Shown here piece after piece: positions 22,286 to 40,147 of a stretch of DNA of 64,000 bases. This DNA comes from an uncultured Erysipelotrichaceae bacterium (GTDB lineage: Bacteria > Bacillota_I > Bacilli_A > Erysipelotrichales > Erysipelotrichaceae), in NCBI GenBank assembly GCA_945877255.1, contig CAMCRE010000001.1, positions 1 to 64,000 on the forward strand, read 5' to 3'. Numbering within the stretch: the first letter of the stretch is position 1; each line of letters begins with the position of its first letter. Under the pieces are notes generated by a model that saw nothing but the letters and a program-made list of their open reading frames with translations, had not been told where the DNA came from and searched no databases. A program made the position numbers and the translations under genes.

Positions 22286-22842
22286 ATTTTAGTATATTCA
22301 TTCCAATATCTTGTTAATTCTTCTGTGTTCATTTAGAAAACTCCTTTCTTCGTTATTTTCTCTTTAAAGTTTTATGACATTGACGGGTGCTTAGGATCAG
22401 CAACATTGGATTCTCACCACCGCCCCTTTTATGATGAGCCGGCTTTCACTAAAGAAGTATCATTATCATCACTCAGATCATCGCTTACAAAGTTTTCCCA
22501 TTCTTTGCTTTAAGAAAATTTATTTGTCTCTCATTTCCTTCTATCCTCATCTTTGACAGTATTCATTTAAACCGAATTTCTTCAGCAGGAAAGTCATGGC
22601 GTAAATATCTTTTGCTCACTAAATAATTAAAAGTCCCGTCTTGGTTTATTAAATTGTCAAAGAACAGATAGCTTATGCTATGTAGGTTCTTTTGCTAAAT
22701 AATGGAATAGATTTTTCCCCTGCCTCAAAAGCAAAAAGGATAAATTCCCCCTACACTTTAATAGTGAAAATCTATCCCTCTTGGTAACCAAATCTATATT
22801 TTTCTTGCAAAAAGAAAAATCAGACCATAAAAATCTGCTAAT
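22286..22842 (-). mobile_element. Remnant of an integrated mobile element, including a truncated ORF start
   Basis: Content and base composition differ from the flanking host DNA, with GC-richer patches such as GGGGCGGTGGTGAGAATCC. On the minus strand, AAAGGAG at a proper distance precedes an ATG at 22332 that begins MNTEELTRYWNEYTKI, after which the sequence runs into the efp terminator. This looks like the first codons of a gene cut off at about 22286. Upstream of it lies a strong hairpin at 22659-22692 (AAAGAAC/GTTCTTT enclosing ATAGC/GCTAT). No intact gene is visible. It resembles the leader region of an integrative element, but I cannot name the family. Confidence 0.5.
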
Positions 22843-39286: not shown

Positions 39287-39293
39287 TAAAAAG

Positions 39294-39327
39294 TTGTCGT
39301 AGTATTAAAAATACACGGCAATTTTTT
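39294..39327 (+). terminator. Terminator after the regulator remnant
   Basis: TTGTCGT (39294-39300) pairs with ACGGCAA (39315-39321), with an inner GTATT/AATAC helix and one bulged base, followed by TTTTTT. Confidence 0.85.
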
Positions 39328-39520
39328 GTGTTTAAATAGTAGTAGTTGTGATATTTTTTCGTCTATTTTTATGAAAGTAATATTGGTTAAAGCATATCAA
39401 CGCGACATAAATGCTAAATATTATTGAAAAGCATGCTGATATTAACGAAAGTAGTATATGAATAAAGTGGAATAATTTATCTTTATTCATTTTTAATATA
39501 GTATGATGTGTCAATCACAA

Positions 39521-39589
39521 TGCAAAATGTCAAAAATATTCAAAAATGTTCAAAAATGTATTGAAAATTATGCAATAGAATGTTATAAT
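39521..39589 (+). promoter_or_regulatory. Strong promoter with 10-bp phased repeats
   Basis: TTGAAA (39561-39566) and TATAAT (39584-39589) are exactly 17 nt apart. Directly upstream are three perfect-period 10-mers, CAAAAATATT, CAAAAATGTT and CAAAAATGTA (39531-39560), preceded by TGCAAAATGT. The A-tracts repeat each helical turn, so this is either an activator site or intrinsically bent/UP-element DNA. The area 39328-39520 holds no gene I can support. Confidence 0.75.
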
Positions 39590-39630
39590 GAGGGTGTCAA
39601 ACATTAATTATATGAAGGGAGGAGTGTAGG

Positions 39631-39693
39631 ATGTTAAAAATTAATGTTTCTAGGTGTAAAAACGGAGATTCCTATATAATAATTAAAACATAA
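39631..39693 (+). CDS. Possible 20-residue peptide (unknown)
   Basis: ATG 39631 is 6 nt after AAGGGAGGAG (39615-39624), a near-ideal site. It reads MLKINVSRCKNGDSYIIIKT and stops at 39691-39693. One Cys, basic start. No family is recognised. The strong promoter and site argue that it is translated; it may be a signalling or leader peptide, or a leader ORF for the next gene. Confidence 0.45.
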   Translation: MLKINVSRCKNGDSYIIIKT

Positions 39694-39710
39694 TAGAAAG
39701 GAGATATTTT

Positions 39711-39923
39711 ATGAATAATAGAAGAATAATATTGCTGTGTACAACAATCATTTTTGGTGTGTTGTTAGATATACATGCAATACTTGAGGCTCGTGTATTT
39801 CCTGAACATTATTGGAAATATAATTTTTGGAAAATAGTATCTATCATTATTTTAATTGTTTGGTATATTTGTGAGTTATGGTTATTATTGAAAGAAAGGG
39901 ATGAAAAGAAAGGAAATAATTAA
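39711..39923 (+). CDS. Small two-helix membrane protein (unknown)
   Basis: A 70-residue protein with two predicted membrane helices (about 6-24 and 43-60), the second rich in Trp and Ile, and a charged tail KERDEKKGNN. AGAAAGGAG at 39695-39703 is 7 nt from the start. It resembles immunity-type or small stress membrane proteins in layout only. It shares a transcript with the 20-residue peptide and ends at a strong terminator. Confidence 0.7.
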   Translation: MNNRRIILLCTTIIFGVLLDIHAILEARVFPEHYWKYNFWKIVSIIILIVWYICELWLLLKERDEKKGNN

Positions 39924-39980: not shown

Positions 39981-40010
39981 AGCAACTTATAAATATAGGT
40001 TGCTTTTTTT
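39981..40010 (+). terminator. Terminator of the small membrane protein locus
   Basis: AGCAACTTATA (39981-39991) and TATAGGTTGCT (about 39993-40003) form a long stem, followed by TTTTTTT. Confidence 0.88.
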
Positions 40011-40147
40011 GTGAGTATGATTGTACTATTGTTTATTGAATTACAAAGTTAAAGTATTGAAGAATGCTTAATTACTAAAAATATGGTAAAATATAATCAG
40101 AAATTTCTTAAAAAATAATGAATTATGATATAATAGAAAGGTAAAAT

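Follow-up and report, generated by a model that had tools for sequence, protein, structure and literature searches.

Very short translated leaders with a strong Shine-Dalgarno (SD) sequence just upstream of the gene they serve are typical of inducible genes of the ermC and cat-86 type, and the broader concept of conserved upstream open reading frames (ORFs) has been formalized (uORF4u, PMC10219788). In amino-acid biosynthesis attenuators such as the trp and his operons, a short translated leader also heads the operon, together with a run of regulatory codons and a terminator between leader and gene. Circular bacteriocin (TIGR03651) and propionicin SM1-like (DUF2599) operons, as well as short peptide pheromones of the Rgg/ComRS type, provide further points of comparison. 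Here, we examined a locus of an uncultured Erysipelotrichaceae bacterium (GCA_945877255.1, contig CAMCRE010000001.1) within a 64,000-nt stretch, hereafter the window, in which a 20-residue ORF precedes a gene for a 70-residue protein with two predicted membrane helices.

Like ermC-type leaders, the 20-residue ORF is very short, lies just upstream of the next gene with a good SD, is conserved in amino-acid sequence in its family, and would complete its function within about 8-13 codons; R-x-K in its core also resembles the +x+ motif of drug-dependent arrest, which we take as a lead only. In contrast, it is present in up to about 12 copies per genome, in front of unrelated exported or bacteriocin-type genes rather than resistance genes, and no SD-sequestering alternative structure was found. 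Compared with amino-acid attenuators, it has no run of regulatory codons and essentially no terminator between leader and gene, and some leaders are intra-operonic. Genes downstream of some leaders belong to or resemble the two bacteriocin types, although the leader is not present in the stretch read upstream of the Enterococcus DUF2599 relative and is a feature of this bacterial order. As with Rgg/ComRS-type pheromones, the unannotated peptides of 10-24 residues are linked to competition genes, but they carry no hydrophobic export-type sequence by eye, and the many copies are each tied to their own operon.

Layout of the locus and its promoter region

The following features, all on the forward strand, were assigned:

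39515-39531 (+), 17-nt motif TCACAATGCAAAATGTC, whose last 16 nt (39516-39531) recur exactly at two other intergenic places in the genome
39524-39559 (+), phased decamer array of period 10 and 3.7 copies (CAAAAATATT CAAAAATGTT CAAAAATGTA), predicted to be curved
39561-39589 (+), promoter TTGAAA-17-TATAAT with an extended -10 TG, whose -10 and downstream region are shared with paralogous loci
39599-39609 (+), 5' arm AAACATTAATT of an 11-bp stem that puts the leader SD and ATG in its loop
39617-39624 (+), SD sequence GGGAGGAG of the leader mini-ORF
39631-39693 (+), leader mini-ORF MLKINVSRCKNGDSYIIIKT of the RYKNGD family
39639-39649 (+), 3' arm AATTAATGTTT of the stem, overlapping leader codons 3-7
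39652-39669 (+), core codons R-C-K-N-G-D (consensus R-Y-K-N-G-D)
39697-39703 (+), SD sequence AAAGGAG of the 70-residue ORF
39711-39923 (+), 70-residue protein with two predicted membrane helices, an orphan in sequence and immunity-like by context
39981-40011 (+), intrinsic terminator-like hairpin with a T tail

A preliminary description of the locus had reported three CAAAAATxTx decamers in exact 10-bp period with a weaker fourth, a TTGAAA-17-TATAAT promoter, two small ORFs with excellent ribosome binding sites, and a strong terminator, and this observation was confirmed. The three decamers occupy 39531-39560, with the weaker fourth upstream, and TRF returned the period-10 array. No other place in the window has 18 of 20 matches at period 10. 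The promoter is the best promoter-like site near the locus, matching at 11 of 12 positions with TG before the -10. A wedge-type curvature model, run with approximate parameter values, placed the site at the 99.93-99.97th percentile of the window, with 2-5 other peaks as high. Both ORFs have good SD sequences, whereas the terminator, a hairpin at 39981-40004 plus T7 located 58 nt after the second ORF, is only moderate, with 10 pairs of which 3 are G-C. Codon usage of the 70-residue ORF is atypical for the genome (-0.03 bit/codon, against +0.15 for the 5th percentile of genes), such that this ORF is supported by its SD and position and not by codon bias. The minus-strand ORF 39332-39514 scored as non-coding. 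The fold of the whole transcript was not unusual (z -0.51), and no Rfam hit was found at the locus, the pemK RNA motif (RF02913) scoring above the gathering score elsewhere in the window (22403-22466, minus strand). A hairpin with T runs on both sides (39293-39335), probably a bidirectional terminator, separates the PTS IIA-like gene from this operon.

The preliminary interpretation, namely a signalling, toxin or stress module behind a strong, possibly curved or activator-bound promoter, was partly supported. The kind of module is close to what we found, but the emphasis on a special promoter is not supported as the key. The decamer array was found only here in the 1.26-Mb genome, and paralogous copies of the leader share the extended -10 and start region but not the array. 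The weak fourth repeat is part of the 17-nt stretch TCACAATGCAAAATGTC, which, at least for its last 16 nt, recurs exactly at three intergenic places of the genome (window 39515-39531, and two loci of our collection, labelled L, at L077 1507-1523 and L081 1510-1525) and could be a regulator site or a repeat. A second promoter/leader is shared on the reverse strand by L075 (1-80) and L081 (1380-1440) (TATAATTG..TAATTGAGGGTAGAA), in front of two different genes, suggesting another small regulon. Absence of both ORFs from relatives had been proposed as a refuting condition, and here the answer was split, since the 20-residue leader is widely conserved while the 70-residue protein is not.

The RYKNGD mini-ORF family

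To determine whether the leader region has paralogues, we searched the genome with the promoter-leader DNA, and thus without peptide bias. Four clear paralogous places (E 1e-11 to 3e-25) and weaker ones were found, of which six encode a mini-ORF with the same core: MLKINISRYKNGDLFFIFKINS, MWVINVSRYKNGDY, MIIINVSRYKNGDFNVISK, MWVINVSRYTNGDLF, MKRINVQRYKNGDIFFWF and MIYISRYKNGD. A codon-degenerate pattern for RYKNGD was next applied and returned ten places in this genome and 102 exact matches in 46 of 315 genomes of the order, against 16 for the reversed pattern. Together with the window copy (RCKNGD) and an RYTNGD copy, the genome therefore has about 12. Of 92 matches inspected, 83 lie in ORFs of 60 residues or less, whereas in the class sample outside the order, matches were at control level and almost all inside long ORFs. 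Exact matches in viral contigs also look like background; all eight hits were examined and none is a convincing leader, and phage carriage of the leader was rejected. No paper in the literature searched, which covers only open-licence papers, contains the string, and the family appears to be undescribed. We define the family by a mini-ORF of 10-24 residues with an SD and the core [S/A/Q/G/H]RYKNGD, followed by a gene for an exported or membrane protein; the window copy fits both criteria, with one Y-to-C substitution in the core and the 70-residue two-helix protein starting 20 nt after the last sense codon of the leader. The identification of the family is strong.

Conservation was found at the level of the peptide. 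In the set retrieved by nucleotide mismatch only, and therefore without bias for synonymous change, the core shows 17 synonymous and 4 non-synonymous codon changes, one of the four belonging to an unrelated ORF (L103), while random change would give a synonymous fraction of 0.20 (p 3.5e-9). As the sequences are related, this and the other p-value below overstate independence and are indicative. Across about 80 mini-ORFs, all common synonymous codons are used, with Arg encoded by AGG, AGA, CGG or CGA and Gly by all four codons. The residue before Arg is mostly Ala, Ser, Gln, Gly or His, preceded by only 2-9 residues, often M-x-x-[Y/I]-N-[P/V/L/I]. After Asp, the tail is free and spans 0-34 residues, the reading frame ending within 0-3 residues in more than half the cases.

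Genes that follow the leader

We then examined the first ORF with an SD after each leader. A strongly hydrophobic N-terminal stretch, as expected for a Sec-exported or small membrane protein, was found in 59 of 64 cases, against 15 of 54 genes of the window used as controls (p 1e-13). Several of these loci are bacteriocin-like. At L124, a circular bacteriocin (TIGR03651, E 5e-18) lies behind a 65-residue membrane protein. At L076, a DUF2599 protein (E 3e-15) is followed by a 79-residue membrane protein and is 34% identical over 89 residues to a 207-residue protein of A. jensenii plasmid pLME106; since propionicin SM1 is a 207-residue propeptide of that species (PMC5756557), the plasmid protein is probably propionicin SM1, an inference from species and length. 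Furthermore, secreted proteins of about 100 residues followed by ABC transporters occur in L166, L167, L175 and L180, DUF6973 proteins in L140 and L190, and a C39-like peptidase in L164. Many downstream proteins match nothing.

The 70-residue protein itself is a sequence orphan. No homologue was detected in its own genome, in the 315 genomes of the order, or among phages, plasmids and viral contigs, and no Pfam, NCBIfam or PHROGs hit exceeded the cut-off, so that it does not belong by sequence to a known immunity family; candidates at E 0.01-1 were inspected and dropped. GdpP used as a synteny probe in named genomes found nothing. Two other leaders in the genome (L075 and L080) are likewise followed by a lone 68-residue two-helix protein. 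Local alignment to these exceeds 1000 shuffles, but BLASTP finds no alignment to the L080 protein, so kinship is only suggestive. The immunity-type reading thus rests on context and on these similar small proteins and is an inference.

Leaders were also found inside operons, 31 nt after the preceding gene in L101 and 20-24 nt after a conserved small secreted ORF in L164 and L169. Tandem units carry their own leader each: at L161 (270-2120), on contig C17 of the genome, two near-identical units comprise a leader, a 164-residue secreted protein and a membrane protein of about 96 residues, leader plus gene being repeated almost unchanged while the second membrane protein has diverged. In L099 and L178 (genomes G253 and G251), a second RYKNGD is fused in frame to the signal peptide of a lipoprotein, directly behind a separate RYKNGD mini-ORF.

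Possible modes of action of the leader

Taken together, the analysis establishes that the leader is one member of a family of about 12 copies in this genome and about 100 in the order, that its peptide and not its RNA is conserved, that the next gene is nearly always exported or membrane-bound, and that some leaders lie inside operons. The mode of action is inferred. We read the transcript as a two-gene operon, in which the conserved leader mini-gene is followed by a small membrane protein that by context is an immunity-type member of a bacteriocin/exported-protein set. A cis action of the leader is likely, as leaders placed within operons and repeated in tandem units would not be needed for a diffusible signal or a promoter-proximal role. 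More tentatively, we favour a mechanism in which, while the ribosome reads the RYKNGD stretch, the nascent chain, or a factor recognizing it near the peptidyl-transferase centre, would alter elongation around the Asp codon, and the state of that ribosome would set translation or stability of the adjoining gene, so that all operons carrying the leader would answer to one ribosome-level signal. In this view, the action would be complete once Asp is decoded, since the residues after it are free to vary, and the phased A-tracts would add promoter strength or a locus-specific regulator site. Ribosome arrest is a supposition, and neither textbook readout is supported. Between leader and gene, only one terminator hit was found among the loci examined, and it overlaps the gene's own SD, which speaks against trp-type attenuation. 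Modelling a ribosome held at the Asp codon did not relieve SD sequestration (median unpaired probability 0.57 versus 0.60, with no systematic change; 0.83 to 0.71 for the window copy), which speaks against ermC-type unmasking. Moreover, the leader-to-gene distance varies from about 19 to over 200 nt, looser than expected of a strict cis switch.

Among the alternatives, the one that survives best, although unlikely, is that the peptide acts in trans, as an intracellular or exchanged signal, perhaps processed, that is read by a receptor and switches on the bacteriocin-type operons, each adding to the same signal. Conservation of the peptide with a variable tail, a downstream set of the kind usually under peptide quorum control, and the absence of a cis RNA structure in our searches are compatible with this view. 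Genome G157 also carries one leader operon next to a LytTR regulator and a histidine kinase, and its locus L154 (contig C20) shows three RYKNGD leaders around a LytTR response regulator, a 408-residue sensor kinase and a 52-residue ORF, a possible peptide quorum system next to the exported proteins. However, besides the repetition of leaders within operons and tandem units, the peptides have no export signal by eye, and no solitary conserved leader without a downstream gene or its remnant is evident, apart from two or three unclear cases such as L150 and L153. LytTR regulators, while common in the order, are absent from the leader-rich genomes G269 (7 leaders), G243 and G245, with one weak match in the window's own genome, which speaks against them as the shared regulator.

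Less likely still, the leader could merely load ribosomes, with a strong SD and a short ORF giving efficient reinitiation or translational coupling at the next gene without sensing. Spacers are mostly 20-60 nt, and reinitiation at short leader genes has been proposed as a general booster (PMC4833913), but this explains neither the conservation of the amino acids nor spacers above 100 nt. A promoter-centred reading, in which the decamers bind a CtsR-like or LytTR/OmpR-like activator of a stress or quorum operon, is similarly doubtful. The decamers abut the -35 and GTCAAAAATATTCAAA fits a relaxed CtsR-type repeat, but no ctsR gene (PF05848) was found in the genome, matches of the relaxed pattern elsewhere in the genome are near control level (35 versus 26), and the array is unique and not shared by paralogous leaders. 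Finally, an RNA or DNA signal (the 5' stem or a conserved 24-nt stretch) with an incidental ORF is the weakest reading, since, although own-genome copies share the start region and the 11-bp stem around the leader SD and ATG (91% paired over seven copies, against 31-49% in slid controls), the stem is missing or weak in other own-genome copies (L022, L159-L161), which makes it a local addition, and the core accepts all synonymous codons.

Bacterial leader peptides usually control one gene or a few paralogues. The mini-ORFs described here are shorter than most annotation limits and were therefore probably missed, and RYKNGD plus an SD gives a simple sequence handle for finding undescribed bacteriocin-type genes in this order, most of which match no known family. 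It is possible, but not more than that on present evidence, that they form a nascent-peptide regulon, in which one short peptide code repeated in front of up to a dozen unrelated bacteriocin/immunity operons per genome would put all of them under a single ribosome-level signal without attenuator RNA structures. A peptide motif conserved across about 100 mini-genes and repeatedly attached to unrelated secreted toxins, immunity proteins and lipoproteins would be a cassette-like translational control element.
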